From positions 372,001 to 436,000 of the forward strand of contig NW_002476317.1 in assembly GCF_000189635.1 (NCBI RefSeq): 64,000 bases of DNA, read 5' to 3'. Below the pieces are notes generated by a model. The model saw nothing but the letters and a program-made list of their open reading frames with translations, ran no database searches and was not told the origin of the DNA. Positions 38,653-64,000 of the stretch are shown one piece after another (the first letter of the stretch is position 1; each line of letters opens with the position of its first letter). The translations under genes and the position numbers were made by a program. Source of the stretch: Tetrahymena thermophila SB210. Lineage: Eukaryota; Ciliophora; Oligohymenophorea; Hymenostomatida; Tetrahymenidae.

Positions 38653-40290
38653 TCAATTCCCAAAAGTCTTATGGCTTACGTGAGTTGAGATATAAATAGT
38701 ATTTCGTCTGCATGTAAGAATATGAAGAAGAAGTGCAGGGATTTTTGAAAGGTATTTTGATTACAAAATTATATTTTGATTAAGAATAAATATCATTAAA
38801 TTTGAGCTCCTTTGGTGCTAATCTATTGAAATTTTATTAGGCTTGCTTATAGCTACTAAAATCGTCTTTATTTGTGTTATCGACTTTTTATTGTTCATTT
38901 CCTTTTGTTGGGCTTATTGAATTTTAAGCTCTTTACTTACCTTTTACATTTTTTTTCTATTAAATGCTGCCTCTCTTTTCTCCTTATATACCTTAAGACA
39001 TAGCATTTGTCAAGGAGTTAATATTATTTTACTCTAACTTTGAAGTTTCAGCATTTATTTAAGTTCCATCGTAATTATAAAGATCTATAGGATGTAATTG
39101 CTAGAACAAAAATTCATTTTCCATATCATATCTATTTAATAATTAATTAATTAAAATAAGAAAAAATATTTTGTTTTATGAGTTTTTACCTTAAGACTTG
39201 AGTACCTGGATCATTAAGCTCGATAGCTATAGATTATTCATAGTTGATTGATATCTTTTTTTATAGAAATTAATATTAATTACAATATCATATAACAAAT
39301 TTTTACATTTTTGTATATTTCTTATCTACTTGACAATTTTCTTTCTATTTTTAGTAAATAAACAGGAAATTCACTTTAGAACTGCCTTATTTCTTCTTCA
39401 ATTAAAGATAAATTATCTTTGTGAACTGCGCCATTAGTTAAATATAAACCTTTGATATAGAATCCATGTTCAGGCTAAACATTTTTTTATACTTCAGCAT
39501 ATGTAGTCTTTTGGAGAACAAATTTCAATTAATGAATATCAACCTGTTTTATTATAAGTTAATTAGATTCATGTAAAAATTAAAAAATAAATATACATTA
39601 TTTGCTTCTGCATAGTTATATAAATAAGACCCTAAGAAAGTATGGGAATCAACTAATCTATCAAGCTAAATTACAGTAGGAATTTATAAGTTAGGTCCTC
39701 TTTCCACTAAAATTTAAATATACTAAATTTTTTAAAAGAGCTAAGAAAGGTAGTTAGCCAAATTTCTTTAGAAAATTTTAAAGCTAAGCTTTCTCCAAGT
39801 TTCAGGAATGGTATTTTACTATATATCATATATTAACTGTTTCAAGTAGTTTCTTTATCCTAATGGTTATAAATCGAATTGGTTGCTAATGTAGTCTAGA
39901 ACATTTCTAATGTCAGTCTTCATTTGCATTATTAATCTAAACAAAATAATACATTCGTTTAAAATAGTTGTTTTAAAAGTATTCTTTTCAACATCTTCGA
40001 TAATATCAACATCATCTGAGCTCTATTCATCTGAACTTGTCTCACTAGAATTACTTGAGTTCTCACTTGATTTTTCTTTGTCACTTTCTTCCTATAATAC
40101 AACATCTCTATGAATTCCTCCTAGATCTCCGAATTTCAAACTACTTTCTCTTCTGCTGCTTATAATCTTTTAGTTTTCTTATTATTTCATATATTTTTTT
40201 TATTCTTCCTAAAAAATATGAGCTGACGTAGACTCTCTTCTTGATTATCTAATTTTCTCACTAAATGATGATTTCCTAAATTAATTTTAT
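38653..40290 (-). other. C-terminal domain of the dynein-like protein
   Basis: After an acidic Ser-rich stretch, QQNTIPETWRKLSFKIFQ matches the family's xxxVPxxWxxxxYPSLKPL. EHGFYIKGLYLTNGAVHKDN equals GVxVxGLxLEGAxWD. The end, LTCRRNTIYISTHVSHKTF, has the place of CPVYxTxxRxG. This means the extended C-domain of axonemal/vertebrate type is present. Confidence 0.85.
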
Positions 40291-43200
40291 TTATTTAATT
40301 TAAATTAACCATTAAAATACAAAAATCATTCTTAATTTGAAGATTTTTGATTTATCAAAAATATAGAAAAATAAATAGAAAATTAAGTTCATTTTAAAAC
40401 AATATTTTTTAATATTTTTAATTATTCATATTAATTACAAAAAAATATCTTAAAAAAGTTAAAAAACAACTCTTACCCTCCAAATAAACTTCCCATCGCA
40501 GGTGATTAGCTCATTTAGGTGATTTATCGATTCTAGGTAGATTGAGGAGAAAAACTTAATTACAAAGAACTTCTCTTTGGAGACTAAAGAAGCTCTGAGT
40601 TTTTCCTTAGATTTGGAGATAAAGCAAAAGCATATTGGAGATTCTTATTTTACTTAGATCTAAAAATGACTAAATCTCCTTAATTTTCTAAATCTTTTTA
40701 AGTAGTCACCCACTGTTTAATAAATTCAGGATATTCCTCTGGCTGTTTGTAAGAGAATTTAACATTTTAATGATATTTTAAAAATTTAATATTTTTAAGA
40801 TGGAATTCATAGTTAAGATTCTTCAAAAGTAGTTCTAAAGTCGATTTAATGTCTTTATATTTTTCATGAGAACTCATGATATTTCTGTAGTATACTTTAA
40901 AGAAACTCTTTTATTAATGTGATATCTTTTTTATTAACTCTTCCAACTAATCAAATTCGTAATTTTATGAAAAATTGTAAGAAACACTTTTTTGCAATGG
41001 TGCAAAATTCAATTCCTCATTATTTTCTAAGTGTGGTAAAAGCTCAGGAATTGGAGGAGACTAAGGACTTAATAATTCTTTTGATTCATTTCCACTTCCA
41101 AATAATAATCCTAATGAAGGATTTTTTGTAAAGAGTTTAAGTTACTAGTTTTTTACACTCCTTCTATTTTCTTAAATTTATTAGGATGTCATTTATTATT
41201 ACAAACTCAGTAATTTTTATGAAGAGTTCTCAACTACCAAATTAGCGATTGAGGGTTTTCTGAAGATTTCATTTGAAGAAATATCAAATACTTTTTCACT
41301 ATCATACTTATTAAGGTTAGCATCTGTTTACTTGCTTAAATTAAACTAATTCTAAAATTTATTTTATAGAGTTTTAGATTTTTGGATATTAGCCTGTCCT
41401 GAGTTGTTTGAACGAGGAATAGGTGATAAAATACCTGAATTAAATTATATTTCACCAGAAGCTCTAGTTTTTTATTATTTTTTGAAATTGATATCTTTCA
41501 AAATAGTATCTTTTTAAATATCATTGAATTATTAGATTTTCTTAATTTTTTCTAAATACTTAAGGCTTTTTACTAAAGGATTAGACAACCATTCATCTTC
41601 TATTAAATTTATCTTACGAATAAATTATTTTGATTTAGCATAATCTTAAACCAGAGAACTGTTAAAGCTAGAGAAAAATAAATCTAAGGGGTCAGATTTT
41701 GTTGGGAACTACAGAGCTAATATTTTGGTGATTCCTTCCTCCACATAGTCAAAAACTCCTGTATTAAAATCATATAAAAGATATGATTAATCCTTTACAA
41801 TCAGCTTTACAGTGCCTTCCATATTACTGAATACAAAGTGAAGCATCATGTTAATATAGTATGGATTGTTGTAGCCATATATCATCTTAAAATAGTTTTC
41901 TAAGAAAGCCTTAGAATTAGTGGGATAGTATTATAAAATGTTAAATACTGACTGGATTTCTTGTTAAAAATCTAAATCTGTTTCAAATATTTCACGAGGA
42001 TTTTGATCTAGTTAAGAATCGTAGCTCTTTAAAATAGTGTTAGTCAATTCTCTTTTTCTTCCTAAACAATTATGCAAAAAGGCTAAACTAAATTTGAACT
42101 TATTTTGAAATCTATTAAAGATGGTTTTGTAATTTTCCTTTTCATGAGTAATTGGGTCAATATGGATATGACGAGAAGAATAAGTATGAGAGATTGCTTT
42201 CTTATCAGCATAGTCTATCAGACTAAATATATTCAAATATTTAGGACTAAGTGAAGTGATTTACTGAGCAACAGAAAGTGAGGATTAATTATTAAAAAAG
42301 CCATCATCAATTGTTTCTATAAATGGATAAGGAATTAATCCTTATCTAATATTATGCTTTCTCATCATTTGAACAACATTGCTATATATCATATTTTTCT
42401 TGATAGTTATTTCTTTTTCCTTTTTTAAGTAATATTTTTAATTAGAAAATTGAATCAACAATCAAATTAGTAAGCATAAAATTTATTTTTTTTAAAATTC
42501 AAATTTTATATAAAATTTTACAATCTTGGTGATGTATTAGTCTGCTTCTTTACCCTGCTTCGTCTTTGTATTTTAAACTTTTGGCTGTTCTGAATTGTAT
42601 CTGTAATCATGAATACTCCTAAAATAGTATCTCTGCATTGATTATTGGACATTTTTAGGTGTAGTATAATAAATTTTCCAACAAGTTTGATAGTATGCTA
42701 ATAAAATTTCGCTATTTTTGTTAAAGTCGAAAGGTTTAAATTAAAAAGGAGAGTTTTGTCGACTTAAAGTTGATGAGTGTGTTATCCAAACTCTAAAAGA
42801 ATTTGTAGTTGTGCTAGCTTCTAGTTCTTAATCGAGAGATTTTAGTAAATATTTGAGATCATTTGTTTCCATTTGCTCAATTTCCTCCAGTAATATCCAT
42901 CTTCCAGCACCTGCAGCTTAGTCTATATTTTGATTAATAGTTTTATTTTATAATTTTTAGTTAAATCAATCAATAGAAATAAATTAAATTACTGATTTAA
43001 TCAATGATACTTTTTATAGATGTGTACCCTAAAGCTATTCTAAGCAGTTAATTTTCATGGTTTTAAATAGATTAAAGTAGCTCTAATTTTTCATATATTC
43101 TGTTTTAAACTTGATCATGAAGTAAAATAGTTGGTCTTCTTTACCAATCTTATTCGCAATGATTTTCTAAGCTGAAAGGAGCTTGATCATAATCTATATA

Positions 43201-46200
43201 ACTTCTCAATATTTTCTGGCTAATGTATTCTGCTACTTAAGGCAAAAAGTCTGGTCTGTTGTTGTGATAATATTATAAATGTTAAAATAAGTTTTTTATG
43301 ATTTTTTATTACCTGAAATGCTTAAAAATAAAAAGCAATTAAAGATTAGAGCAGTTTTAAAGTATTTCTTTTGGTAAAAAAGGAATGTATTTTATTGAAT
43401 TAAAGCTGTAGTTTTGATATAATTTTTATTTTTTTTATTCTTAATTATCATCTTCATCTTCTTCTATGTCATCCTCATCTTCCTAAATGTCTTCTCCTTA
43501 GTTCTATTAATTTTCTTATTTTATTTCTTCATTTATCTCTTTCAAAATTTCATCTTTAATTTCATACTCTGATAGACTTTTCTAAAAGAATTCAATCCTA
43601 AGAAATAAAAGAAAGGAATGTGATTAATTTTAGATAGATTTTAAAAATAAATGAAAATACCATTAATCTGGCTAATCAACTAAGCTATTGACTGCTATCT
43701 TAATTCCGTTCTTGGCCTAAAAGCTATTGTAAGACTCTATAAATTTTTCAATAAGCTCTTTACCCATTAAATGAATTAACTTTTTAGAAACTTTTTCCAT
43801 TATAACTTAGGGTTAAATATTTTTAAAATTAAATTCGCTTTTAGGTTTAATAGAGTCGCCCATTTGAACTCTTGCAGTTAATTTTTAAACAGAGTTATTC
43901 ATAATTGATTTTGAGGTTTTGAATGGACTATTATACTTTTTGGTATCATTTTCTATTACTTCATCTTCATCTATTTATGTTGGAGAATTTAATTCCTATC
44001 TATCAAAGAATTTTTTAAATAAAGGATTATATTCATTTTATTTAGAAGGAGAAGAATCATATGAGCTTTTATAAAACGATTCATCTCTTGAATTTTGGCG
44101 ACTAACTAATGAAAAATTATTGCTTTGTGACCTTTAAGAATTATGAGGACTCTCACTTATACTTTGAGTGCTTGCACGCCCTCTTTATTCTATTTCTTAT
44201 TTTTCTTTTTCAATGTATTATTATTTTAAAATTTTCTCTTTTAAACCAAGTATTTTTGCTACTGGAGAATAACCACCTCTAGAAAAAGAATTTTCTTTGC
44301 TATCAACAAGTAGCTCCTTTCTTTCAACAAACTTCTCAAGAAGACTTTATTTTTCTATTATATTTAAAAAAATATAAATTATTAATGATGAAATTTTATT
44401 TAAGTTATAAAATATCTGTTTGATGGTTAAATGTATTTGTTAATTACCTTAAATATAGCATTAAAGGGGAGCAATAATATAGTTAGGTATTTTGTAAAAG
44501 TTTATAATCTTAGAATTTAGTTTATTATAATTATTTTTATCCATTTAGTATTATTGTTTCAAAGATATTTTGTTGTTTTTTTCTGCATGTTGTCTCCTAT
44601 TTTTTGCTGTTTTATTTTATTCATCTTATAAAATCATTTCTAATAAATTCTCATCATTATTTTCAGCTTATGAGCTTAACTTAGGAATTTGCCAGTTCAA
44701 AAATAGCCTCCATTCTTTTTCAGAAAAACTCTTTGTTCCTCTAGAATACATCATGCTGAGATAAAAACTGAATAGAAGGCGATGGTCATCAGCTAAACTT
44801 GAATATAAAAGATAGAATACCGTTTCACAGAACTTTTTGATGAATGTTTTTTTCTAAAATAATAAATGAATAAATTAATAAATAGAAATTTACATAAGTT
44901 TAAAATTTATTAAATTTTAACAAATAATCTTTTACAATTTTTGATGGCTGGGATGAATAAGAAGAGGGAGTTACATTTAATTATTTGCACCTCACACAAG
45001 CTTGTTAGACAATCATAAAAAAGAAAATATCAGAGAAAGAATAGACTTTACCCAACGCTTTTTCTAAATTGATGTAATTGAGTTTAATTGCATAAAGAAA
45101 ATCTAAAATTTCTTATAAGCATCCATTCTAAAGAGTTATTTCATCTAATTAGAAATAATTTTAAGCAATAAATCCAATTGTGTTTTCTCTTTCTCTTTGT
45201 TTTTAAGTTTAAACTTGCAGTATTTTTCTTTTCTTTTACAAATTTTTAGCAAAACTTTTTTAAGTTTTCAATTGTCTTTTTTATTCCTTTTGGGTCGTCT
45301 ATTCATTTTATTTAAGTTTGTTAAAGTCAACAATAATTTATAGATTCTTTATTGTTTCAGCGCCTATTGTCATACTTCTTCTAATACTAGTAGCTGAGAC
45401 TTAAGGTAATAAATTTGCTTATTTCTGTTGATTATCATTGTTACTATTTTATTAATTTGTTTGAGTACCTTCTATATTCTAAGCTGATTGCAAATCTAAT
45501 GCTTGTATTGTTCTACTTTTCTTGATTATTTATGAACCTTTTTCATTTTGATCCTATCCTTAATCTTCTTAAGCTACTTACTCTTAGTTAATTTCCATAT
45601 TAATTAAATCATTTATTTTTTTATCTTACTCTTGAGTCTTTAGTTCTTGCTATTCTTCATCAGCATCTTATTCTAACTCAATTTTTTCAATTAAATTATT
45701 TTTATTACCTTGGTTGTCTCCTACCTATACGAGTTCTTTTATTATTCTTTTAGGAGAGCTTACATCTTCATCACTATGTCCTATTATTACAAAATAAAAA
45801 ATTAACTTTGTTTTATTTATTTATATTATATACCTCTGTTAATAATTGGTGCATTTAATTAATCGCTCTACTAAGAACCAATATATTTTTTAATTTACTC
45901 TGAGTTATCGATTAACATCCTCATAAATTCTGTATCCTCGCAAGTAGTACACTTCTCTAAGCCAATAGAAATTTAGCTGAATAACTAGTTAAAAAAAAAT
46001 TTTTTTAATGTATTTAGTAAATAAAAAAATAACTACTTTTGACATATTATCTCTCTTACTGGTGTAGTGATCTATTTTCATTTAAACTTAGTTTTATTTT
46101 GCTTCAAAATTTAAATTATTAACAGCATGGTCAAACATGGCTTATTTCCATTAAATTTCGTCTTCTACTTCACATTACAGTAGAATTATTTTTGTAAAGA

Positions 46201-49200
46201 TAGAGTGTGAAAATGAAAAATTAATATTGGTAGTGATCAGCATAAGCCTAAAATTTTTATTTACTGTAATTTCTTTGCCATTAAACAAGAGAGGTTGTTA
46301 TCGAGTTAATTCATTAAAATCAAACAACGCTTAGTTATGCCACTGCATCTCATAATTTAGTAAGCTCTGGTTAGGGTCAATATTTTATTTTTACCAAATT
46401 TATTCACCTTCGCTATTCTGTATCATAAATCTTAATAATTTCATCATTCTCTTGTATTTCCATTCAATAATTGGCATAATTTGTTGTATTGTTTTCTCAT
46501 CAATATTTCTCATTAGCAAGAAACCTCCTTCCTAAAGAGCTTTTTCTATATTTTAATATGATTCCTTTTCAATAAGTGTATTGCTCTCTACGACTATAGT
46601 TTTCTCGTATTTTTTCTTAAAATATTACTAGTAAAGTCCAGTTTTATCATTAACCCAAAAGTAATAATACAAATCATTTTCACTTTAATTATTAAAAAAA
46701 ATTATTAAAAAAAATTATAAATTATTAGTTTTATATAAGTTAAATATATTGTGTGAAATTTTAGATAAAACTCAAAAAAAAAGCTAATTTTATTATTTTT
46801 ATTTTATAAATGATAAACAGAAACTTAAATTAAATTTTAACTCAAAAAAAATTAATAAACTAAATTTTAAAATTTTTAATAAAATGAAATTTAAAATTAA
46901 AAAAAAAATGAGTTACTATAAGAAATCTGTAATGGTAATCTTGTCTACGAGATCTTAATTAAGAGGTATTTAGTATGAGAAAATTTAGAAATAGTATAAT
47001 GGATTATAGAGAGCATTAAATAACTTTGTATTTTTTAAATGCTAGCTCTTTTAGAGGCAATCTTGAATAAGCTCTTAAAATTTATTCAAGAAATAGAAAG
47101 GGTATTTAAAGAGAAAAGTAACTTATAAAGCTAATTGTATTGATATTTCTTAAAGATACGAATTATTAATTAATTGGCAACTTTCTTCATTAACTAAGTG
47201 CTTAAATTACATTTTAAACTTTTCTAAATGGTTGTTAAATTATTGCTATCCATCCTTCTTTTAAACTATATGAACCATTAGATTTCTTTGCTCTTTTTTC
47301 ATTTTTTCTATCAAAGTAGGATGATCCTTTATTATCTAACGAGGTTTAATAAAATTTTATTCAATTTGACATTTTTCTCTTTCTGCTTTAAGCTGTCTCA
47401 AATTTTCTTTTTGCTTTAAATAAATTAGGTTAATAAATTTGATTAAATTTTAATTTAAATATTACTTCTGTTGAGCTAGTTTGAAGGTTTCTCACTTCTA
47501 AAGTTAATCTGTACATTTCAATAATAAAATCTATATACTTCAATATTTCTCTTTGGTGAATATTTAAATTTCCAGTCAGAGATATCATATGTCCATGATC
47601 TACAGATCCTCCTTCTTTATTTAAGCACTTAAAAAGATCAAAAGTGTTACTTTTAATGTGTTCATCCTTAAAAGTAGTAATTATATTTTTGAATTCATCA
47701 CTGTCTGAAATAATTTATTAGAATTTTTCTCTATAAAGATCAATATTATTGAAGTTATTAGAGTTTTTATTAACTTCGTCTATACTATCAACAATATCAT
47801 CTGCAAGCTGCTGCATATTTATGTTGTACTTATTTAATATAACAAATATATATTTAGTTTAGTTTAAAATATTTTTAAAAATAATAAAGTAATTTACTCT
47901 ATCTGGAATATTTCTATGGAGACCAATCAAAAATATAAGAATGTAAACAGTCATTTATTTGATTTGTACAAATTAAGTAGGCTTAATCTTTTTATTAATA
48001 TGATATAATTTTATTATTAATTTAATATTTTTAAATAAATAAATAAATAAATAAATAGATAACTTACTTCATCATTCCAGCTATTTTTGCTTATTTTAGA
48101 AATTTTGTAAGCTGTTTCATTCATCTAAGATTAAATCGCTTTGAATTAATTTTCTATTTGAGTACATTTTGCGATAAGGTCCTACAAATTTTTTTCTTTG
48201 GAGTTATAGCCTATTTTTTATTAATTATTTGTTAAATATTGCAAATAAATAAAATATTTTATACTCTCCTCTAAATTTTTAAGCTCTTAAAATTTCTCTT
48301 CTGCCTCTTTTAATTCTCTGAGATGCTACTTCTTTGTTTCTTTAATTTTTACAAACTCTTATTCAGCATTTTCTATTTCAATCCTAAATTCTATGGACTT
48401 CTTCTCCATTTCTTGAATAATTTTGAAAAATCCTCCCTTTCTTCTTAGCTTTTCTATTTTAAGCCTAATTTAATTGTAAACAACACTTCTTGTTATATAA
48501 AATAGACTGTATGTTTCTTCATATGTTCTTTAGAAATTTTATTTTGAATAATCTTCAAATATTTTTTATACTTCCTATTTATTTTTTAAAAATCAATCAA
48601 AATTAAAAAACTTTGAAAAAAATATTTTTTTACCAGCTCTTTTGAATACGCTTACATTACCATAGCTTTGTGCTTGGAATTAATAAAATCAGGAATGTAC
48701 TTAAACATTTCTTCAAAAAGCATATTTTGAATTTGATTAGATTCATCGTCAGAAAGTGGAATGTAATAAATATTTAATTTTGTGAATTACTAAAACATAT
48801 GATTAAATTCATTTTATAAGCATTCTAAGGTGTTGTCCTATCTTACTTGGAGATCATAATGTAAAATAAAACGCAATTGAGTTTTAAGTCTTAAACTAAA
48901 TATATAATTTAGGATGTAATTATTGAAACGAGGATACTTAGTTTTCATGTTCCATTTTTGCATTAAAAATTCTAATTACTAAGTTGTAAATAAAGATTAA
49001 ACTTCTCCTCCTTCTACTATGTGATTAATGATATCGTAAATGTTACTTATTGACTCAAGTCTAAGTTTTTATGCATTTTTTTAATTTTTATTTAGATCTT
49101 CTGTTTCATCGAGCTAATTTTCTTAAATTTTTTCATCTAATACAAGTAAATTGCTTGATAATTTAATATAAATGATAATCATCTAATTTTCTTCGATAAA

Positions 49201-52200
49201 TAGATTTTGGATTGCAGAAAATAGGCAATTTTAGAATCTCTATTAAGTTTTATTTGCGCTTTCTTCATTTTGAATTGTAAATTCAAATGCATTGAAATTC
49301 AACAAAGAACAACTATAATACACAAGATGCTCTGTTATACGTTATGAAAGAGTGGATTTCAAATAGATATTTTGAGAACTAGATTATAGTAAGTGGATTA
49401 ACTTAATAGCGTGAGTTAGGAAACAATTAATATTGACTTCTTGTATTAAAACAAAATCTAGTAAATCTCCTCCTCTCCAGGTGTATATTTACATATTACT
49501 TCTTTCTGTTGACTATAAAGGATCTTAATTAACAGTATTATTCTTTAAATTTTAGATCTCTTCCATTTGTTATGTACTAAATTTGAATACATCTTTTTTA
49601 TTTTTTTTCTTTGCAGATACCAAAGGATTTTACAAAATGTTTATACTAGATGATGCATAATTAACTATACCTACCTAATTACTGTTATTTTAGGATAATG
49701 AAAATTAACTTTTATCTTTTATAGAATCTTAACTTTATAACTTCGCGATATTTGTATTTAAGAAACTATCTGAGCGTTTGGCTTTATGAATTCCCTTCTT
49801 AAGCTACTTTTGTTAAAAGTCATCAAACATTTTGTTAAGATCAATCTACCTTTTATTATTTATTCCTTCAATACTCTATGCTTAGTTTGTATCAAAGCAA
49901 AATTATAATAGCTTTTAAACTAAAAACAGAAGTATTTTTTTTCTCCTTTTATCATTTAAATAAATGAAATCAAGCTCTTCAAATAAATTCATTTCCAAAT
50001 TAGCCAATTTAGCTGTGCTTTTTATTCCTAAAGCACCTTCATTTAAATCTTTTGTCTTTTACTTGGAAATTTATTGATTAAGATCAGTTAGTAATTTATT
50101 CTTATGTATAAGTGATAAATTAAAGAAAAGAATATCCTGTCTTTATTTTAAAATTTATTTCCATAAATCAACTGATACACTGCCTCTCTATTTTTTTTAG
50201 CTCTTAATCGTCCTTTGAGTTTTTAAGTTATTTTCAGCTTACTATGCTAAAAGTAATTCTTATACAACTTGGCTTGTTAATTCTATCGTAAATTAATCTG
50301 GTAGAGTAGAGAAGAAACTGAACATAAATTCTACATTTTAGAGCTTTTAAAGGATCTCATCTGTTTTTTGCAAAGAAGTAATACCTTAAATCTAGTTTGA
50401 ATTGCCTATATACTACAACTTTTACGCATTAGTAACATCTCTACTAATTTAGTAATGTTAACTACCTGTTTTTTTTTCTTGCTAAATGAATCTTCTTTCT
50501 TCTATTTTAGCTTATTTCTAAGCCTCTAATTAAACCTACTGCTATTTAAATTAAAGAATGTTTAAATCAGTATTTTCTTGATTCTAATGAGTTGTAGGTA
50601 GAAGCTTAGCGCTTTTCAATGCTAACTAAGTAATTAAAGTAGCACTGTAGTCATACAAATCACTTAAAGACTCATCTTCTACTTCCTTTGAGTTAACACT
50701 TGATTCTTCTTATTTACTTTCATCTAATACATGAATTGAATAGTCACCCTTATTATTATTTTTTTTGTCTTCATACGCTATTTTAAATTTTGAAGATTGC
50801 TTTTCTAAACCTGAATTAGAAACAAAGTAAGATTCTTAATCCAACAGTTTCTTGTTAGGAGAATTTATCTTTTGTTACTGTTGTTCCTTTTAATTTTCTA
50901 ATATATCTTAAGAATATTAATCATCCACCTTGAACTCAATTTAAGGAAGGTCTAACATGCCTAAAAACCATTCAATCTACATATAAAAATAATATAATCA
51001 ATTAAATTAAATTAAATTTAAAATTATACCTTTTTGTCAGATGAAAAATTAAAGTTCTTTCTAATTTCATCAATTTAATTTAAGTTTAAGATTTTAAATT
51101 TTTTGTTAATTATATTTTTATTTTTCCTCTAATTAGGGTTTTTGTTTTTGCTTTATTAATTCTATGACTGTGCATTATCGTTATCAGAATATTTTGAAAG
51201 TTCAGCGTTCTGTGACATTTCAGAAGAATCAGAATCTTCATCTTCTTCTTCATCATCATCATCATCGCTTTATTCTTCATCTTCTTCTTAGAGTTTTTCT
51301 TCCAAACTTTAATTATTTTCTATACGACTATTCTATTTATCTACTGCTTCTGAAATAGTTTTGAGAGATATTTGATCTATTTCCTTTACCTAATTTTTTA
51401 CTTAAAAAAATATACAAAAATAAAATTAGATAGATTTCTTTCATAAATTTTATACATTTTTCAAGACTGCCCATATTCGGATAAGGCTGATGGATAAACT
51501 CAGAAGAGTAGAATTAATTAATTAAAAATACTAATGATTTAATTAAATTTTCGTAATTGATTGCTTTTGTACTTTTGTCATAAAATTAAAAGGAATTTAG
51601 ATTTTTAACAATTTCTAATCCTTTTCTTATTGATAAATTTGCATTAAATTAGCATGAAATTTTCTTAAATTCGCTTCTGTATTTGTCATTCAATAAACCA
51701 ATTAATGAGCAAAAGTCCTAAATGATGCCTGTAACTTTTTTATTTGCCTTCATGCCAGGATGGTTAATAGAATTATTGTGAAGCTAGAAGATGCTGATTA
51801 TATCTAATAATTTATAATTTTTAACAAACTTTTTAAAAAATAAAATTAGTTACCATTCTTTTCTAAATCTGGTACTTTTAAAGAAGAAATTTTTTCGAAA
51901 AGTACAGTGTTAATTGAAGGTTGAATAGAGTTTATATCAAAGTATGAAAAAACAGCTAATAGTGTTATCATACTAAAATTAATAAACTTAAACTTATTAT
52001 TACTAAACCATCCATCATGCTACACAAGAGACCTGATTGCACCTATAGGTGAAATTCCACTAAATGTTTATTTAAGAAAAAAAAAAATTAAGTTAATTTT
52101 TTAATTGATTTGTTTATTTACTCTTTGGATAAATTAAGGTCATCAATAAAGATTAGACTGATGGTTTAGTGAATTGAAGTGAGATGATTACTATTTTTCC

Positions 52201-55200
52201 AAACTAAATTTTTTTCAATTCTTCTTTAAAAGCTGCTTATTGTGGTACCTCTTGAAATCGAGTTATTAATGCAGCTAAAAGAATGATGCTCTAAGAGATT
52301 TTTAAGCTTATTTTTGATTATTGATGTGATACCATTAGATTACTAGGCTAATAAAATATAAGGCTTACAGTATGCAGAAAAATACTGTATAAAGAATTTT
52401 GTGATTTTGGACGCTCTTGTTTCTATAAAAAGAATATTTTCTGGAATATAAACCTCCCTTTTTTCTTATGTCAGCTTTGTGTTGACTATACTAATTGCTA
52501 AGGGGTTTAATCTTTATTTAAAAAAAATAAATTAACAATAAATATAAATAAATATTTTTTTATGATGATCTTATTAGATATTTATGTTTTGAATTGAATT
52601 GACATATAAATACGAAAGAAATGGTATGAATAAATGCATACCTAACAATTTCTCTGTTATTTAAATTGTTTGATTCAAAAGATCCACTTATTTCACTGCA
52701 TTCTTCAAGATAAAAATTCCTCCATTTAATCCACTTTTGTTTATGAATATCAAAAATATAATCAAATATGTTAACATCCTTTTCTTTAAGCAATATTCTT
52801 AAATCAATAGCAAATGGATATGATTCATTTGTATATTTAACGTTCGTGTATTCAGACCTAAACCTATTTTGTCATTTAATGAATATAATTATATAAATTT
52901 TTTTTTGAAAATGTTTACCTGCAATATCTTTCAATTTACTCATTTAAAAATTCTATATAAGTTTATTGATAAGAATCTTTTATTTAATTAGCTAAAGACC
53001 AAGTCATACAAAAGACAAATGCAGATTCAAAAGAAGAAATCAGTCGAGACTCTGTATCTAGTAAAATATTATTATAAATTATCTCATTGTTGCTCGAGTC
53101 AACATAGTTCTTTCCATTTTTTTAAGCATTTTTATTCTTAGATCCTTTCTATTTTTCACTATCAGCATCGCTATTACTTTCACTATCACTACTTCTTTCT
53201 TCATCACTCTCTTCTTCAATGAATGGTTCATTTGAATTATTTTAGTTAGTTTAAGTAAATTATGGAGCAATATTTCCACTACCTCTATCTAAACGAGAAG
53301 AGAGAGCTGTTGTTAAACTTGAAGTTATATGATTCTTGCGCTCTCTTCTTAAATTATTAGAAGGGAGATTCATACCTTCAGCTTCATACTCTCCTATTGC
53401 TATTTCAAATTTACGTATTTCGTTTAAAAATATCTCTAAATAATCTAAAAAGCATTTTAGTTCGCTCTTTTGGTTTCTCTTAAAAATCAAATGCTATTTT
53501 AAATTTAATTAAATATTAATTATAATTTTTTTTATTTTGAAATAATTCTCTTAAGAAATATTTTATGGATTAATTGGGTAGGTGTTGTTAGCTTGGATTT
53601 TTAAAAAAATTGAAAAAATTAGATTTTATATTTGCAAGAAAAAAAATTTTTAATTAAAAAATCAATTTATGAATCCCTATTAAAGTGATAGTTATATTTC
53701 TAATTAAATGGTATTCAATTAATTTTTATTTTAAATTATAGAATAATATTTATTACTGAAGAAGGAATGCTCTCAATCATTTAAAAGAATGGCTCCAAGA
53801 AATATACAAACATTGATTTGACTATTGTGTGGAATTTAGAAAAAAAGTTATTCTATTGAACTTTTCTCAAATACCAACTGGTGTATTCATCACTTAACTT
53901 AACCATTTGATTAGAAAAGAAGAACATCATGTATTTGTTAAAAGAAGAAGGTGATATATTTTGTAGCTTCTCTAAAGAAAAAACAACTGTAGCAGCAGAA
54001 GGTACTCTTAGGAAGTCACCATCACCTAAGCTAAATTATTTGTTTTCAAATCCATCTAATAATTCCTCTATAGTATGATTTTGAGGTATCTAGTTCATAC
54101 ATTCAGCACATCCATCTACAACAATCCAATCATTTTGTGATCTTTCAACTACTTTTTTCTTTGTGTTTCTATTATTTTTATTTTTTAAAACTAATTTTAA
54201 CAATAAATTAATTTTACTTCAGCTTTTCAGTTATAGTATTAGCAATATAAGTACTAAATATAGTCTATTTTCCAAGCATGGTATCAATTATTTCTGAATT
54301 TTCATTGTTTTAGATCTTCATTGTATCAATTAATAAATTTAAGAATCCTTTTTTCTTTTCTGAATAAAAAGTTTTAATGGTAAGTATTTCTATATTTTGA
54401 AAATTAATTAATTAATTACACTTAAATAAAATAGATCCTTAAATATCGTCATCTACATCAAATTCTTTTTTAGAAGATAACAACGTTTCTCTTTCAACGC
54501 TGTCAACATTTAAAAAATTGACATTGAAGTTTATTTCTATTATTTATAAAATAAAGTTAGGATGTAAGAATAATAAATAAATAAAAAACTAAAGATAACC
54601 TTTTGAAACTGACACCAAGAAACTCAGAAATTATATAAATAGATTCTTTTTTGAAGAGTGAGGACCATAAATAATCAAAGGAACATTTTTTAAGATCAAA
54701 GGGAGTATAATTCCGGCTTGTTCTGAGAATTAAGATTAAAATGGATACTTATGAAAGTCAAAGAATTAATTCATTTATTCATTGTATTATTTTACGAACT
54801 CTACATACTCAACACTTTGAAGAGAATTCATTTCCATAAATAGCTTATTAAAAATATTTTTCATATAGTTAAAAGCTCCTGATGGCATTATTCCTTTGAA
54901 GTAATTTTCAATAGCAGATTTGAGAGCTGTTTTATGGGTGTATGGGGTCTATTATTTGCGTGTTTCTTACATGTAAAATAGAGCATTTCTAAGTATAACT
55001 AAAATTGATTTTAAACTTATCAATCTTTATTACTTTTCACTTCTTTAATGGATAATTTATTAGAAATCAATGTAAGTCAATTTCTTTGAGTAAGAAAATT
55101 GCTAATTGTTTGTTACTGTACAAATAAATTCAAAAAAGAAAACAAGTTTTTGAGATTTTTCATGAACTTCTTCTTTATCAAACCCTATTATAAGCAAGTA

Positions 55201-58200
55201 GTTCTATTTTTAAAATAAAATCTATTAATATTTTATTATTTAATTAAAATATTTAATTACCTTTATAATTTCATTCGAGTCAGGTTTTAAAAATGTTATA
55301 ATTCTGAAAGATTCTTGCACACTTTTTGGCATTGTCTAAAATGATATATCTGATGGTTACGGAAGAATATTCATAGTACCAAACAATCCAAAATATTAAC
55401 TCACATCTACACACTTGGAATAGTATGATAATTATGAAGTTCCCATTGAAATGGTCTTACGAATCTAAAAAGATATGTTTGCAATTAAAGATAGAGTAGC
55501 TGAAGGCAGATTTTCAAAATTGGTAACATTAACCCAATAGTTACAGGATGCTGAATTCAAAAGTATTTATTCTACTATTGCAAGAGACTAGTTTTAGAAG
55601 TTACATTCGAAAATAGATCTTCCAAGAATAGCTGCTAAGCTATTGATAATAGACTTTTTACCACTGCTTGGAGAACCTCTTAATATGCAACTAAAATTAC
55701 TAGATATAGTGACAACTGCTTGGTGAATAACTCTTAGTGTATTTTCTGTAAATATAAAGTTATTCATTGTAGGAACAAGCTCAAAAGAATAAGGAATTTT
55801 GTGGAAAAAGCAGTTCAAAGTAATTTATAAATCTTAAGGTCTTTTTTTAATGCTATTTATATAATCTGATTTAAAGGCTATCAATGGCATGTTAGAATTA
55901 TTTATTTCAATTTCTTAATTTTGCTAATTTTATACTTATTGTATTTGCACCACCTAATTTGATTTTTTTGTATTAGTTGTAAAATGCCCTTCTTCTAATT
56001 TTTTTTCTGCTTCTTCTTCATCGTATTTCTTTTTTTTAAGAATAAGAATTGTGGTTAATATTTTAAGGGAAAAATTTAGTTTTACTTGCTGAAGAGATTC
56101 TTAAATTGTTTTTCTAGACGACTGTATCATTTATGAAACATCTCCTTCATCGATAGGAATTTGAAGGGTAAATTTAGGTAGAATCAAATACTCAAAGCTA
56201 TTTAAAGAAAAGGTTACTTATTTGATAGCTCTTTAGAGTATGTCTAGATGTTGTTAAATTTATATTATTGCCCTAAATTAAAAAATTTCATAAGTTAGAA
56301 AAAAAATTTTCTAAAAAGAATTTACTAAGTAAATTGAATTGATTGAGTTGTCGATAAGCCAACCTTGATGACTGTCTGATAATAAGAAATAAGATCATCA
56401 AAATTCAACTTAAGGTGATCATAAAAGCGCTTTATATCTTAATATTTTTATTCTAATGATAGTAACATGGTAAGGTCATGCATAAATAGTATATCGTTAA
56501 TAAGATAGAATGATTAAAAGATAATATATTTTTTTATTAAAAAGTTATTCCATATTTTCCAATAATTATAATTTTTTGAAGCAACAGGTTTAAGATGCTA
56601 CATGATTTAGAACCTAAGGTACTTTTTCATTTCACTTTCTATTAAATTCACCATACCCAAATTTGGAGGTTTTTCCATATACTTGAGAACATATGGTATC
56701 TGTTAAATAACATAAAAATATTTTTAAAATTGAAAAAAAAATTCAAATATTTTACAGGAAAGGATAATTCTATCACTTCATCGTAATGGTTAATTATTTT
56801 ATTTATTTCCCAGACATTCTCGTTACCACTCTAAGGATCATCACTTAAAGGTTAGCATTAGAATTCTTTGACTCCAGGAAAAAGTAAACTTATTTTATTT
56901 AAAAATTCCTATTTTATTATTAAAAGAACACTATTAAATATTTCTTTTATTTAGTTAAATAAATTACTTAAGGCATAAAAAGAGATTGAGAGATTTCAAA
57001 AATAAGTTCATCTGAAACAAAAGCATATCTTGGATGGGTTTGTCTGACTGCATTAACTATATGGTAGACTTGGCTTTAAATCTTTTCACAGGTTAAGTAA
57101 ATTTGCATAAATATTTCAAATATTTCTGATTAATTCTTGCTGTCAGGGTTATCTAAAGAAAACAAATTCATAAAATAACTCATTCCTCTTTTTGTTATTT
57201 CTTCTGTATGCTTTTTAAATTCAGAAACAACCTTACGAAATAAAATTTCAATTCCTTTATACTTTTATTCGCTTTCTTTAAATCTAAAGATTGGGGCAAA
57301 TTTTACTATGTAATCTTATATTTTAGCAATTATTTTTAACACTTTCCTTGTATGCTTAACAAAGTGTTTTATCTTTTTAAGTTTTTCTAAATAATCATTT
57401 TTCTAATAAGCTTTGTTTCTAAGCAATTCCTATCTAAATATTTAAAAATTAATCAATATTTTATTTTAGAATCAGTTATTCAATCAATCAATCAGTCAAT
57501 TTAATTTATTATTTACACTTTGAATTCTTCGTTTCTTAAACGATCTATGATTTATCTGATATCAATAATAACTAAAGTGGAAAAGTAGTTGTGTAATTAA
57601 AATTTTAAATTAGAAAACTCCTATTCAATATAGCTGACACTTTGCTAACTCTTGAATTCATCTTTAGCTTCCTATATTTAGGTATGTATATTTTGAAGTC
57701 AATGTAAATTATTAAATTTTTTTTTACAACTGCGATGACTTTGATGCTTTAGATATAATCTAACACTCCGTCAGAAATGAGATTATATAGGTTAAAATTA
57801 GTTTAATCATCCATTCTCTTCATTTTTTTTCTCTTTTCTTCATCTTTATCGTAAATGAAGTCAAATATTTGCTATTTTTATAAAAATTTAATTTTGCTAT
57901 TTTATTAAATTCATTAATCTTTTGATTAAATTATACATGCCAGTGTTGAACTTTAAATGATTCATCTTTCACTTAGACTAGAAGTTCATATACAGATTAA
58001 AAGTCTGTGATTTCTTGACTAATAGCTTCTATAAGAGGAAGTATATCAGGATTTTCTTATTAAAAGAAAGGTTCTACTTCTCTAAGTACTTTATTTCCTC
58101 TTTCTAAAGTGTAGGATATATCCCTGATATCTGTGATTTGTAAGCACTATGCATTTTAGCTTGAGTTTATTAATGGTTTGAATAACCAAATCTGTTTTTT

Positions 58201-61200
58201 CTATTCATTAGTTAAGTTATTATTACTAATGATATATTTATCGTATAAATTTTAATTACTGTTGTCCAATCTTAGGTGTATTACCATATCTTCTCATAAT
58301 TTTCAAAATCTTCTGTCAATTTTTCTATATCTATTTCAGAATCAAATCCTAAACCTAAATTAATTCCATCTTATTGAAGCTATCTCACTTATTGTCTATG
58401 TTAATTTTATTATTCGAACTCTTAGATTAACTAATAAAAAAATTTGTTTACCTTAATTGATAGAGGAGTGTTATGACCGCCTCACAATCTCTTGATTATT
58501 ATTCTACTAAACTAAAACTACTAATCTTCCTAATTTATTCTACTTTTTCTTTTACTTCTTCTATTTTTTTCTTAACTTTCTCTTTTTCTTCTAAGTGCAT
58601 TTAAATAAATTTGGGATGTTCTTTTTCTTGTTTTTCATCTTTTTTGTTCTTTAAATCAACAACTTCTCTATGAATCAATTCAGCCCCTATAATCTAAAAT
58701 ATTTTTTAAGTGTAAGACTATACTAAATGATTTTTAAAAATACTTTAACAAGATCTTCTTGGCTTATGTCTATAAGGAGTAATTATTGTTTTTCAATAAT
58801 ATTTTAGCTGATATGAATTAGGTTTAACATATTATTAAAATCTGCAAATAGCTCCTCCCCCTACAAATATAAACTTAGTTTAATGTATTCCCTAACATCT
58901 TTTGGTTCATCTTACATTTTGGTTAAAATTTTTTCTCCTAAAGCCATGCAAGACTCAATACTTTTTTTAAATTTTTCCTTTAAAATTTTTTTAGAAAAAG
59001 CTATTTTTTATTTTATTTCTGTGATTAGCGTTTCTTTGAACTCTTTAGTGTCAATTAAAAATACTCCTATTGGCATTTCATCTAATAATCTATTTTTCAA
59101 AAAGCTTAGGTCACTTTCCATTTTATCAACTTCAGAAAATACTATTTCCAATTCCTTAAAATTAAAAGTATAAATTCATAAATATAAATTAAATATTTAA
59201 ACTAAAATTTACATCAGTATCTACTCTCTTTTACAAATACCTTTCATATTTGTGAGAATAAAGAAAATAGAATTCAAATCTTTGCAATACAATAAAGAAT
59301 GAATATAATCCATAAAATGAGTAGGTGAGAAATTCTTCTATATCGTCATTCAAAGAATTCAATTTTTCTTATATATCTGAGTAATTTATTAAATGATCCT
59401 CTAATATTATAAAACAATAATTGAGATTAACATTTTTAAATTTATTATAATAAATTTTTCATGAAATTACTCCTGTAATATATGTTTATTTTGCAAATCT
59501 AATCAAAAATATCCTTGATTAAAAGCTTAAACCTAGATTCAAACTCTGGTAAGCTAGGCTCATACACGATAGTAAAGCAGTTAAGATTAAACCAGCCCAT
59601 TTTCTTTATAGTAATAGTTTTATCCTATTGATAATCAATTTTAAGTTAGCTACATTTGTTTAAATTTGTATTAATTACTTTTATAGATTCAAAATATGTG
59701 TTTGGGTCTATTTCTTCAAAGTTTCTACATGCTATTTCCTAAAATATGTCCTTCATGGTAGCATTTAGCTCCTCCAATTTCCAAAACTTTTCTCTTCCGT
59801 TATCTATCATATCTTCCATATTAGATAGATTTTACAGTCTTTTGAAATTTATTCTCTTAGTTATATTGTCTAACTGTTTTTTCCTATATAAATAAGCCAA
59901 GTATTTTAAAAATTTATTTTCTCTTAAAATAATTTTGAAAGTTATACTCAGCTGGTATTTTTTCATTTAAGAATTTGGCTTTGATCCTATAAATAGGTTT
60001 CAATATTTTTGAATCAATTTTCTCAAATCTTATGTGCGTTAATTTATCTATTATGTGTTTTATTGAATAAATAATTATTTAGAAACTCTTATTTATAACT
60101 TACCTGTCAAAAGAAGATTAACAATCTATCTATATAATTTATAAATAATGTTTGCTTCTTTGTAGAAAGGCCAGCACTCTTCCATTAATTACTAAACTTC
60201 ATTATCTTACACAATCGAAGAATTATTTATCTATTTATAATTAAATTTTTTGTTAAACTGTATAAAATCTTAAGCTTACTAAAGATTAATTTCCAGATCC
60301 TAGTGAAAAAGAAGCTAAATTAAACTCTCTTAATGTGCTTCGTCTTGCTTTTACATGCTAAGTTATTAAAGTTTTAGACACATCTAATTCTTATTTGCTT
60401 GTGTTAAAAAATTATTAGGTTTGATGTAAAGACTCATTGCTTTTCTTTTTAAAATTTATAGTATTTAGTTTAGAGGAAAAAATATATCTAAATTTAAACT
60501 TACTTCTATTTTTTTAAACTTGACTGAGGGTGCTATAATTAATAACTAATATATTGAAAAATAGCTTTACAATTAATTGCCAAAATTCTGAAAAATATAT
60601 TTACTTATTTGTAAACTTCATTAGATTCTCTTAAGAAACATTTCTTCTAACTCTCAAATTATTTTTTATAAATATGATCTATTTTTAATTCATGCTACAA
60701 AAACTCAAAAGGAATGATAGAAAAAAATAAGTTAATTTATTATCTAAACTCTTCTATTTGCTCTCTTATCATATCTATAAGATGAGACTGTACAACCTTA
60801 ACAGTTCTTTTAATTAGAATAAAAACATATGTTTAAAATATTATTATCTAAATAGTCTTACAAATCTACAAAGCTTTAGTAGAACTAGTCAGTCCATAAA
60901 AAGTATTTCTTACTATCTTACTAGTTTTTCTTTTTATTGAGTGTTTGCATTTCGTATATCATAATCTTAGTTAAGATATTCAAATAGTAAGTAAATATAT
61001 ATACATTTAACAAAAAATTAATTAGTTTTACTTCAAACTTTTCTACATTTTTACTTAGGTTTGATATTTTCTGCTTAACAATACTATTCATTTCTATTTA
61101 AAATTATTTAAAAATTAATTTTAACTTAGCTTTTTAATTAAATTTTACAAGAAAGAGTAAATAATGATGGCAATTAATATGGAGACTTTATTTCTTTTAT

Positions 61201-64000
61201 AAATTAGAATATGTTAACCGATCTAAGTTCCTATATTCTCTTTGCAATCTATTAAATTTAATTTATTTTTACAATCAAATTAGAAAACTTAAAAATAAAT
61301 CATTAAAAGATGATTTTGAAAGACTTACATTTGGAACTATTCTTTTGAAGACAGTGTTATGATATTCATTAGAGAAATAGAAGTTTTGTAAAAGTTTTTC
61401 TTTCAAAAAAGGAAAGTAAGGATGTGGGATAGCGTAATGCTAAAAGAATATCTAAGCTTTTTCCAAATTTAATTTATTCTCTTTATCTTTTTAGTTTAAT
61501 TTCTCAGATTAAGTGTATTTAAAAACATTGTGGTCATCCTATTTTGGAGTTTGTAATTCTTTTTCTTACACTTCAAGCTATCTTTTGATGTTAAATGTGT
61601 AAACCTCTTCTGTTAAAAATTCATAATCATTAAATTTAACTTGGCTGAGTATAGAGTCGATTTGGCTCATCTCTTCTTACTGAGTCTGTCTTAAGGATAT
61701 AAATTCATTAGTATCTGGCGAGAGCAGATACTAAGATCTTTTGAAATTTATCTGACTAATACCATTTATAGATCCTGGTTAAGTTATGTTAGCTGATTTA
61801 AAGAATGTAAATTTATTACTTTATATAAAGAGAGATGAATTTCTCTTATTTTCCAAATTAATCTTAAACTAATCATTATTTTCTTCATTTTAATTTGTTT
61901 TTTCAAGATTTTAATTTGTGTCATTTTCTAATTACTTTTTTTGATCAGATTCATTTAAAACTTCTAAATTAGTTTATTTTTCTTAGTGGCCTTAAATATT
62001 TTGGAAGAATGCTGATTTTTTTTTATGACTATTTTGCTATTCATCTTAATTCGTTTTATCTATAGATTGGTCATCATGTTAAGTGCTGTTTAGTATATTC
62101 TTTTGACTATTGCTCTAAAGGGTCTTATGTAATTTAGATTTTTTTAGATTTTTATATTACTCCTTAATAATATTTTGAGTTTAATTCTAATTGTCATTTT
62201 CTAAAGGTAGGTATTCATCATGCTCTTTCTAATTCTCTAGGTGCAAGCTTTGAAAAGTCTTATGCTTTATCAAGGTGCTTTAGTCAGTCTTTTTTTTATT
62301 TTATACTTTTTATTCTTCTAACAATCTTTCTGGGTAGTTTTAACAATTCATAACAACATCATATAAAAGATTTTGTTTTTTTTTTAGTGATTGCTTTAAT
62401 TCTGGAAAATATGCCTCAAAGAAATGGTCAAGAGAAGGCACAGTATTTATTTCACATGCAAACTTAATTACTTCGTACTTAAACATTTCAAGTATCTCTT
62501 CTACTACTCTTTTGTAGTTCATCCTCTTTAGCTTTCTAGAATTTTTAGAATTAAATACTTTATCAATAACATTTAGCAAAGTCTGTTTTGAATAGTAAAT
62601 AGATTTATCTTAGCCTTTTTCTTCATTAACAAATATTTTCATGCCCATATAATACAAAAGTTACTCTCTTTTTTTTAAAGCCTCTTTATTTCTCTTATTC
62701 ATCATCTCTTCATTTTCCCATTCATACATCAGATTTAATCTTGTTACCTTATTAAAAAAATATTAATTTGCTTAAAAATACTTAAATAAGGTTATTAATT
62801 TCCAAATACATACCTCTTTCATACGATCATTTGATATCCATTTAATTAAGAATCTTTTTGTAGTTGGATTATATTTAATGACTTAGCAATCCTTCCATAC
62901 ACTTTCTCCATCAGGCTTTACCCATCTAGAGTATGCTCTTATAGAGGATTCCTTGATTAATTAAAGAGGATCTGGATCTTAATTTAAATATGAGTCAAAT
63001 AATTCAAGAGGTTGAATTTTATAATTTTGTAGATTTGGAATTTTTATAATTAAGAGTTCATCTCCTGTTTAATTAACTAAAATGCTTAAATCTTCATCTT
63101 GTAAAAAAGGGTTGTTGTTCATTGTTGTATCACCTTCTCTCTAATCTAAATACCCTATTGATGATCCAGCTATAGGATTAGATGGTCTCATATCTAATTC
63201 AGTTTAGAAAGAAAGAATTGGATTAATCATTGTATTATCTACTAAATTATCGGTTTTTTTCCCAATCATAGAGCTCTCATCTACAAAGATTTAATTGGCT
63301 GGAATTTGAGTTTAATTAATTACAGTTTAATTCATTTAAAACGTAGTATCTTTCTATTTAGATAAATTTATTGAATTGCAGCTACTTTTTCTTCCAAAAC
63401 TGTTTATATAAAAACATAGGTTAATTTATTTTACTAAAAAATATACAAATGATTTTTTTTTTAAATATTAAAAAAATATTTACAATTTTTTGCTTTTAAA
63501 TATTGGGTTTTTTTTAACCATAATACTTTAGTCTTAATCGAATTTAATATCTTCTTAAGAAGGAATTAAATGTTAGCTCTAGTTTAACTAATACTCATTA
63601 AGTTATTTATTATTCTGTTCAATTTAATGCAACAAGTTTTAAATTTAATGCTTTGATTGAATCTGCTAGGGAATATTTGAGTAAAACTCCTAATTTTAAA
63701 TGACTGAAATAGAATTATTTTGATTTCCTATTGAATCATTCAGAAACTCAGTTGGTATAGTTTTCTTTGATTACTTTTTATTATATGTTTAAATATATAC
63801 ATAGTAATTTAATATTTATTAATCTTTGTAAATGCTTATTACTCATTAAATAAATAATAAACATTTTTAAATAGAAATTAAATGAATGAAGAATTTTACT
63901 ATTTAAATTTTTGATACACTCATTAATTTAGAGGATTCTAGCTTTCCTTTTTATTCGCTTAATTGCAACTTACTTTCATTAATCCCAATTTTACCAATTT
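38653..64000 (-). CDS. dynein heavy chain with degenerate ATP sites (5' end beyond window)
   Basis: One gene of more than 25 kb, many short introns, N-terminus running off the right edge. The tail starts in the window with KIGINESKLQLSEQ and later has SRWVKPDGESVWKDC, typical of axonemal heavy chains. The linker ends with HPRYAFVSDELIFEISQ (near 57.0 kb), matching the family's PRFxFLSxxELLEILS. AAA1 to AAA4, the stalk, AAA5, AAA6 and the C-terminal domain follow in order down to PALLLHILTCRRNTIYIST and TGA 38653-38655. Splice at 40280/40480 (SLFGG to KSSFSEK) was checked in phase and shows that the C-terminal block belongs to the same gene. Every Walker A motif is damaged, so ATP-driven motility is unlikely; this resembles the vertebrate DNHD1 class in concept. 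Large acidic, Ser-rich or Gln-rich inserts make it longer than usual heavy chains. Not all introns were resolved. Confidence 0.92.
40300..43270 (-). other. AAA6 and following region of the dynein-like protein
   Basis: RPDFLPQVAEYISQKILRS matches the LRPDRLxxAxxxFVxxxLG segment of AAA6. AGAGRWILLEEIEQMETND followed by NSFRVWITHSSTLSRQ corresponds to GxWVxLQNCHL and FRLWLTSxPSxxFP. KFKFSLAFLHNCLGRKREL matches the KLLFxLCFFHAVxxERRKFG helix. This fixes the AAA6-to-C-domain transition. Confidence 0.86.
43400..45780 (-). other. low-complexity inserts between AAA5 and AAA6
   Basis: Polar stretches such as NNSNNDNQQKQANLLPQ, SESPHNSQRSQSNNFSLVSR and the acidic block GEDIQEDEDDIEEDEDD (about 43441-43500) are in frame. 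Between them lies the conserved ADDHRLLFSFYLSMMYSRG (near 44.8 kb), the family's KDKLLFSFLLCxKIL, so these are inserts and not a separate gene. Confidence 0.75.
46050..46680 (-). other. AAA5 module of the dynein-like protein
   Basis: IEKALQEGGFLLMRNIDEK corresponds to the family's LExAIxxGxPVLLENVxE. Further on, QPLLFNGKEITVNKNFRLML and ITTNINFSFS match xLGDxEIxYxPxFRLYLTTKLxNPHY. Confidence 0.82.
47240..48560 (-). other. stalk coiled coil and divergent microtubule-binding region
   Basis: A long charged coiled coil starts after RLKIEKLRRKGGFFKIIQEM and includes KETKKQHLRELKEAEEKFQE (CC1). A second polar helix follows around 48.1 kb. Next comes IKPTQFVQIKQMTVYILIFL, in the place of the family's MRxPPxxVKxVMxAVxxLL. 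The region to 47.25 kb is helical but the usual microtubule-binding signature is hard to see, so track binding is doubtful. A (AAAT)n repeat at 48032-48058 sits in an intron here. Confidence 0.7.
48032..48058. repeat. (AAAT)n microsatellite
   Basis: Six to seven tandem AAAT units in an intron of the dynein-like gene. Confidence 0.7.
48600..49500 (-). other. AAA4 module of the dynein-like protein, no Walker A
   Basis: CFLTHAIKLIHLLQ aligns with the helix before AAA4's GVGGSGKQSL, but is followed by SSSQNIYLKSTLSQRITEH with no glycine-rich loop. The later text still follows the family: LLNFNAFEFTIQNEE for xxxxxVFQI, then IVEGGEVQSLFTTQQLE for INNxLxxGEVPxLFxxDE. Confidence 0.82.
51237..51300 (-). 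other. acidic Asp/Glu/Ser tract within the dynein-like protein
   Basis: A run of GAT/GAA/GAG codons gives SLEEKLQEEDEEQS followed by a block of Asp and Glu, in frame between AAA3 and AAA4. It is the core of a polar insert of several hundred residues between about 51.4 and 49.6 kb that normal heavy chains lack. Confidence 0.75.
51840..52500 (-). other. AAA3 module: Walker A lost, Walker B kept
   Basis: Where GPTGTGKS is expected, the protein reads AQQSNGITS (52325-52348), losing the Lys. In contrast Walker B is intact in SLIFIDDLNLSKE (52121-52156), as in canonical IFVDDLNMP. The following exon has SPIGAIRSLVQHDGWF, matching PPIELLRQWMDHGGWY. Confidence 0.87.
54000..54790 (-). other. AAA2 module of the dynein-like protein, degenerate Walker A
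   Basis: VPLIIYGPHSSKKNLFIQFL occupies the place of VGPTGTGKS: at 54643-54666 GPHSSKKN keeps GP and a Lys but lacks the final Gly and the Ser/Thr. Later, NDWIVVDGCAECMNQIPQNH and VPSAATVVFSLEKLQNISPS match the AAA2 consensus WVVFDGPVD...MNTVLDDN and MxFEVxDLxxASPATVSR, which secures the assignment. The final SR pair is replaced by Asn and Lys. Confidence 0.85.
55360..55830 (-). other. AAA1 module of the dynein-like protein, degenerate
   Basis: Family AAA1 has GPAGTGKT (Walker A) and CFDEFNR (Walker B). Here Walker A reads RGSPSSGKKS (55651-55680): the GK is present but the next residue is Lys instead of Thr. Downstream, LGRSIFECNFQNQS aligns with the VFNCSD segment, and NYWVNVTNFENLPSATLSLI takes the place of GAWxCFDEFNRI, so both acidic catalytic residues are absent. 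FGTMNILPQPSD then matches the sensor region FITMNPGYAGR but without its Arg. Hydrolysis at this main site is not expected. Confidence 0.88.

Follow-up and report, generated by a model that had tools for sequence, protein, structure and literature searches.

Can a dynein heavy chain be conserved once the residues with which it should hydrolyse ATP have been replaced? The question is raised by a locus on contig NW_002476317.1 of Tetrahymena thermophila SB210, within the 64,000-nucleotide stretch that we analysed (the window). A sequence-only reading had noted here a giant heavy chain gene that looked catalytically dead.

A giant heavy chain gene on the minus strand

The window reads by the ciliate code, with 47 frames of at least 250 codons open under table 6 and none under table 1. 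The gene was modelled by spliced alignment to P0002, its orthologue in T. utriculariae, with introns restricted to GT-AG and frameshifts disallowed; stops were penalised but permitted, and none was used. The exons run from 63998 to 38618 on the minus strand with no in-frame stops, and a TGA stop codon occupies 38615-38617. The 5' end falls outside the window: the orthologue's first 176 residues map beyond position 64000, and the start lies at about 64602, some 600 bases further on. The end points first proposed, 38653..64000, are corrected accordingly, with the gene ending at 38615 and starting beyond 64000. A homologue-blind gene model placed 36 exons on the same strand, and 26 of its 35 introns agree at both ends with introns of the guided model, which has 53. 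The gene and its modules are as follows.

38615..64000, minus strand: putative pseudo-dynein heavy chain gene (54 exons, 7159 codons within the window)
62583..62963, minus strand: N-terminal module (residues 276-380, one intron within; phmmer and Smith-Waterman)
56968..57433, minus strand: linker (DHC_N2, partial; Pfam 30.9 bits, slightly below the cut-off of 31.9)
54973..55827, minus strand: AAA1 (Pfam AAA_6, 68.6 bits)
48634..49455, minus strand: AAA4 position (positional; conserved in the genus, unrecognisable as AAA4 on its own)
47159..48436, minus strand: stalk / microtubule-binding position (coiled-coil-like by eye)
46037..46681, minus strand: AAA5 (Pfam AAA_9, 33.0 bits; family profile E 1.6e-4)
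42555..43434, minus strand: AAA6 / D6 (Pfam Dynein_heavy, 27.9 bits on the orthologue; cut-off 30.5)
39597..40274, minus strand: Dynein_C (Pfam 45.8 bits on the enclosing frame 39528-40325)

The window also holds an ankyrin-repeat frame (36824-38125, plus strand; Ank_2, 123.6 bits), which converges with the gene at its 3' end, a CCCH zinc-finger frame (27955-29121, minus strand; 60 bits), an ion-channel frame (33760-35091, minus strand; Ion_trans_2, 45.3 bits) and a Ras-type GTPase exon whose P-loop, GDPAVGKS, is intact (17398-17691, plus strand). A plasmid search gave no match.

Domain organisation

Pfam models matched along the protein in the order DHC_N2, AAA_6, Dynein_AAA_lid (36.4 bits), AAA_7, AAA_9, D6 and Dynein_C. 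The modules were compared by Smith-Waterman with P0001, a heavy chain most similar to DHC2 and DNAH1. Out of 300 shuffles none equalled the score of AAA2 (z 11.1), AAA3 (z 12.4), the AAA5-6 junction (z 11.7) or AAA6 (z 13.8); the scores for AAA5 and the stalk were weak, being reached by 15 and 14 of 300 shuffles. A profile of the paralogue family described below could be aligned with P0001 from linker to AAA3 over 1355 columns (E 2e-37). In the PDB the D6 part matched one dynein, at E 0.15. Single-sequence AlphaFold models had a mean pLDDT of 31.9 for the AAA1 exon and 39.3 for the AAA4 exon.

The AAA4 position was not recognisable against P0001 by Smith-Waterman (117 of 300 shuffles reached its score), and neither was the microtubule-binding domain (306 of 1000). 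At the AAA4 position Pfam gave no AAA_8 match, and no dynein appeared among the Pfam or PDB matches. When hhalign was used with the genus sequences alone it detected neither AAA4 nor the stalk, and the family profile brought AAA4 only to E 0.04 and a probability of 1%. The same segment is identical to its congeners at 262 and 266 of 274 residues. Because AAA4 and the stalk are only positional by the shuffle tests, the earlier description of linker, AAA1-AAA6, stalk and C-domain as all recognisable and in order was too strong: it stands for the linker, AAA1-AAA3, AAA5, AAA6 and the C-domain, and no significant match was obtained for AAA4, the stalk or the microtubule-binding domain. Among the Pfam models it had named as a check, DHC_N2 (just under its cut-off), AAA_6, AAA_7, AAA_9 and Dynein_C matched and AAA_8 did not. 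Since the linker, the ring modules and the C-domain follow the canonical order, the sequence indicates that the gene belongs to the dynein heavy-chain lineage.

The nucleotide sites are degenerate

55654..55677, minus strand: AAA1 Walker A position (GSPSSGKK for GPAGTGKT)
55519..55524, minus strand: AAA1 Walker B acids (TN for DE; VTNF for FDEF)
54643..54666, minus strand: AAA2 Walker A position (GPHSSKKN; register set by eye and from the alignment of the family)
54102..54128, minus strand: AAA2 Walker B position (WIVVDGCAE; Smith-Waterman z 11.1)
52322..52348, minus strand: AAA3 Walker A position (AQQSNGITS, lysine to I; Pfam AAA_7, 54.3 bits)
52133..52153, minus strand: AAA3 Walker B (IFIDDLN, kept)

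The AAA1 loop reads GSPSSGKKS in the window protein and GSPSCGKKS in T. malaccensis, against GPAGTGKTE in dyneins; the Walker A lysine and the sensor-1 TMN are retained and the Walker A Ser/Thr is gone. The pairing of GK[ST] with DE at AAA1 that marks a motor is thus replaced by GSPSSGKKS and TN. At AAA3, AQQSNGITS aligns to GGAGVGKTQ of 7kzm_A, and at the AAA4 position no GK is seen where a P-loop would be expected (register by eye). The pattern [AG]xxxxGK[ST] occurs nowhere in the gene model or in any of the six reading frames across 38-64 kb, which bears out the claim that AAA1-AAA4 hold no canonical P-loop; the whole window contains it twice, both times outside the pseudo-dynein gene, and the control dynein P0001 three times. 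AAA+ proteins that lack both Walker B acids and the Mg-binding Ser/Thr are not expected to hydrolyse ATP. Since all of these are lost at AAA1, no hydrolysis is predicted there.

Conservation within the genus

A protein search over a length range of 4653-14805 aa, in which matching depends on shared 5-residue words, returned two Tetrahymena orthologues and one midasin-looking protein at E 7.8. The orthologues, P0002 (T. utriculariae, 7332 aa) and P0003 (T. malaccensis, 7191 aa, partial), are both unnamed hypothetical proteins. A shorter range (1792-5702 aa), outside which the full-length orthologues fall, returned one oomycete dynein, P0001. The protein P0004 was rejected as a dynein, its six P-loops being midasin-like.

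The window protein is about 90% identical to each orthologue (6400 of 7137 aligned residues for P0002, 6403 of 7092 for P0003). Identity to P0002 is 257/266 in AAA1, 263/271 in AAA2 and 303/316 in AAA3, compared with 256/313, 121/168 and 166/211 in three inserts, and across the species the contrast is between 96-97% in AAA1-AAA3 and 68-82% in the inserts. No nonsense change was observed on the branch of the window gene, where about 7.1 would be expected under neutrality. These comparisons indicate constraint on the tail module, the linker and the greater part of the AAA ring. The degenerate sites of AAA1-AAA3 are themselves the same in all three species, apart from an S/C difference within the AAA1 loop and a V/I difference next to Walker B. 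Two further claims of the sequence-only reading are upheld by these results: that the frame stays open over about 25 kb with splicing and is no decaying pseudogene, given the absence of in-frame stops and the identity between species, and that a non-hydrolysing heavy chain has been conserved, which finds sequence support in the replacement of the AAA1 catalytic residues in three species. We are highly confident that the gene is real and encodes a conserved dynein heavy chain predicted to be dead for hydrolysis.

A family of divergent paralogues

Relatives were sought in one genome, the window's own (101,022,631 bases). An AAA_6 search gave 73 exon matches, which we grouped by hand into at least 25 conventional and at least five divergent loci, both counts being lower bounds; the five divergent loci all scored above the family cut-off. 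A search with the N-terminal module added two loci, C140 and C290, which have no AAA_6 match and in which 5-kb pieces further downstream hold relatives of AAA1-AAA3. The divergent loci are thus at least seven: C214 (the window), C114, C206, C273, C297, C140 (L051) and C290 (L052), the last two being still more divergent members.

In C114, C206, C273 and C297 the tblastn matches of P0002 cover 3739, 3684, 3944 and 1434 of its 7332 residues, and are collinear with it from the N-terminal module to near the C-terminus. The corresponding models are giants of 6652, 6968, 7239 and 6915 residues, each with 3-6 introns longer than 300 bases; they disallowed TGA inside exons, so their freedom from stops holds by construction. 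For C140 and C290 the reading covered 5-kb pieces and the stretch that carries the N-terminal module rather than full models.

At AAA1, GTGKTE and DEFN are present in 25 of 25 conventional loci; odd letters at the three positions before GTGKTE in C176, C259, C322 and C381 are put down to exon edges. DE is kept in none of the seven family loci, the Walker B pair being TN in C214 and C114, KS in C206, KN in C273, QN in C297 and C290 and CN in C140, and GK[ST] is kept in one (C206, GPQATGKSS). For C140 the AAA1 Walker A, SQPSSGKVS, comes from a separate reading of its 5-kb piece, because its columns were misaligned in the genome-wide motif alignment, and the registers of C140 and C290 are the least sure as the pieces score only about 40 bits each. 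Scans for [AG]xxxxGK[ST] found no match in the models of C273, C114 and C297, one in that of C206 (at AAA1), one in the pieces of C140 (GKCGSGKT, at AAA2) and none in those of C290. GKT is retained at AAA3 in C140 (SSSYKGKT), C290 (SQRGQGKT) and C297 (STPQAGKT), which counts against a uniform loss. With P-loop residues kept in part by C206, C140, C290 and C297, the window gene is among the most eroded members. Membership of a ciliate-wide clade without P-loops had been proposed as support for a dead motor; here seven loci group together, in a clade known from one genome rather than ciliate-wide, and C206 and C140 each keep a canonical P-loop.

An AAA1 tree was built from 34 rows, with P0003 omitted because it nearly duplicates P0002. 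In it a branch with 100/100 support separates the eight family rows from all the others, and in a second tree without P0002, P0003, C140 and C290 the five family rows were again united at 100/100. The tree is midpoint-rooted, its stem measures about 3 changes per column, and the program flagged a meeting of long branches. Identity in AAA1 is 19-38% within the family and 15-27% to the conventional loci, and because these ranges overlap AAA1 identity alone is no proof of one origin. The collinearity outside AAA1 is an independent argument for one family. Judged from these sequences, the window gene is very likely one of at least seven dead-motor paralogues.

The N-terminal module points to inner-arm ancestry

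With the N-terminal module as query, phmmer returned six matches, of which three were non-dyneins and three were the dynein chains 9e5c_6a (E 0.0037), 8glv_JG (0.023) and 9y6s_6k (IDAa heavy chain, 0.48). Smith-Waterman z scores were 13.3 for 9e5c_6a, 15.1 for 8glv_JG and 7.5 for P0001, reached by 0 of 1000 shuffles each. The 8glv_JG module found the same three dynein chains, itself included, and three non-dyneins (E 1.7e-4 to 0.058), while that of P0001 found nine chains, all dyneins: IDAa, DHC2 (dynein d according to an excerpt of PMC9776847), three DNAH1 and four that bear no class name. The conventional AAA1 loci C278 (L034), C176 (L007) and C178 (L035) also have the module on their strand, 4-5 kb upstream, and we take module and AAA1 locus to be one gene in each case; C178 and C278 pair at 100/100 in the AAA1 tree. 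Its fold may be SH3/Tudor-like, which is a guess.

Other regions speak less clearly. The IDAa heavy chain was the better of two PDB matches to the C-domain (E 0.0079), AAA3 alone matched several kinds of axonemal chains, and AAA1 alone matched midasin best (41 bits), along with cytoplasmic and axonemal dyneins alike, so the case for ancestry rests mainly on the N-terminal module. Because the module matches inner-arm heavy chains (IDAa, DHC2/DNAH1), inner-arm ancestry is best supported and appears likely from sequence; the protein carries the module that membership of the a/d type would entail.

Motor, switch, ghost or scaffold

Strong divergence from conventional dyneins could signal a decaying pseudogene or, with GT-AG introns imposed by construction, an artefact of the gene model. 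The 90% protein identity in three species, the different rates of modules and inserts, the recovery of 26 of 53 guided introns with identical ends by a model blind to homologues, and four collinear paralogues make this explanation hard to credit. The sequence-only reading had suggested a counterpart of vertebrate DNHD1, by which a dead heavy chain would be ancient and common to animals and ciliates. DNHD1 is indeed an orphan dynein-like heavy chain, termed a 'ghost gene' in an excerpt of PMC8754002, and the sperm flagellum is disrupted when it is mutated (excerpt of PMC9916431). The latter source gives it 4753 aa, however, against about 7300 for the window protein, and the search whose range spans that length returned only the two Tetrahymena proteins and the midasin-looking one; its absence is weak evidence, since the search needs shared 5-residue words. 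We regard orthology with DNHD1 as quite improbable.

The family might instead consist of nucleotide-dependent switches that still bind ATP at one site or more and produce no force. Residual nucleotide binding at AAA1 of the window protein is possible, with its lysine and sensor-1 TMN in place, and the intact AAA3 Walker B (IDDLN), together with the Walker A motifs of C206 at AAA1 and C140 at AAA2, means that binding may persist in the family. The window member has a canonical Walker A at no site, and switches seem unlikely. We favour, with some confidence, a non-hydrolysing pseudo-dynein, with at least seven paralogues, derived from an axonemal heavy chain of the inner arm (dynein a or d type) and probably serving as a scaffold. 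With AAA1 stripped of its two Walker B acids and of the Ser/Thr in Walker A, and the P-loops lost at AAA2 and AAA3, the ring would be unable to run a power stroke, and a protein with such a ring would serve as a fixed arm or scaffold. An inner-arm-type tail could dock it in cilia or cortical microtubule arrays, where the arm would space, link or restrain neighbouring active dyneins.

The chances seem even that the family amounts to a second dynein set, of at least seven giants that lost AAA1 catalysis before they radiated and now form non-motile structural arms on an inner-arm chassis. If so, cells would combine active and dead dyneins within a single system. No paper on the divergent family was found among the literature matches listed (titles, starts of abstracts and passages, with most subscription journals outside the coverage), and in the same matches the 'ghost gene' DNHD1 is the only precedent for a dead dynein heavy chain. 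With at least seven conserved members in a tractable ciliate, such a family would open the role of a non-hydrolysing dynein to direct tests.

Comparison with known dyneins

Catalytically dead enzymes retained for structure are well known. The window protein shares with inner-arm heavy chains (IDAa; DHC2/DNAH1, dynein d) the same ordered N-terminal module, linker, AAA1-3, AAA5, AAA6 and C-domain. Unlike them, it is without the hydrolytic residues of AAA1, its AAA4 and microtubule-binding domain are unrecognisable, and it is about 3000 residues longer, partly owing to low-complexity inserts. With DNHD1 the likeness, as far as the excerpts go, is to an orphan dynein-like heavy chain that was doubted as a normal gene and is required for the sperm flagellum. 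The conventional Tetrahymena DYH chains belong to the same heavy-chain lineage and differ by GKT and DE at AAA1 in all 25 loci. A published count of T. thermophila heavy chains, in an excerpt of PMC3341644 (Table 6), is likewise 25, a figure set beside ours as a total rather than mapped locus by locus; the seven divergent loci are additional to the 25 conventional ones, and the family would enlarge that count.
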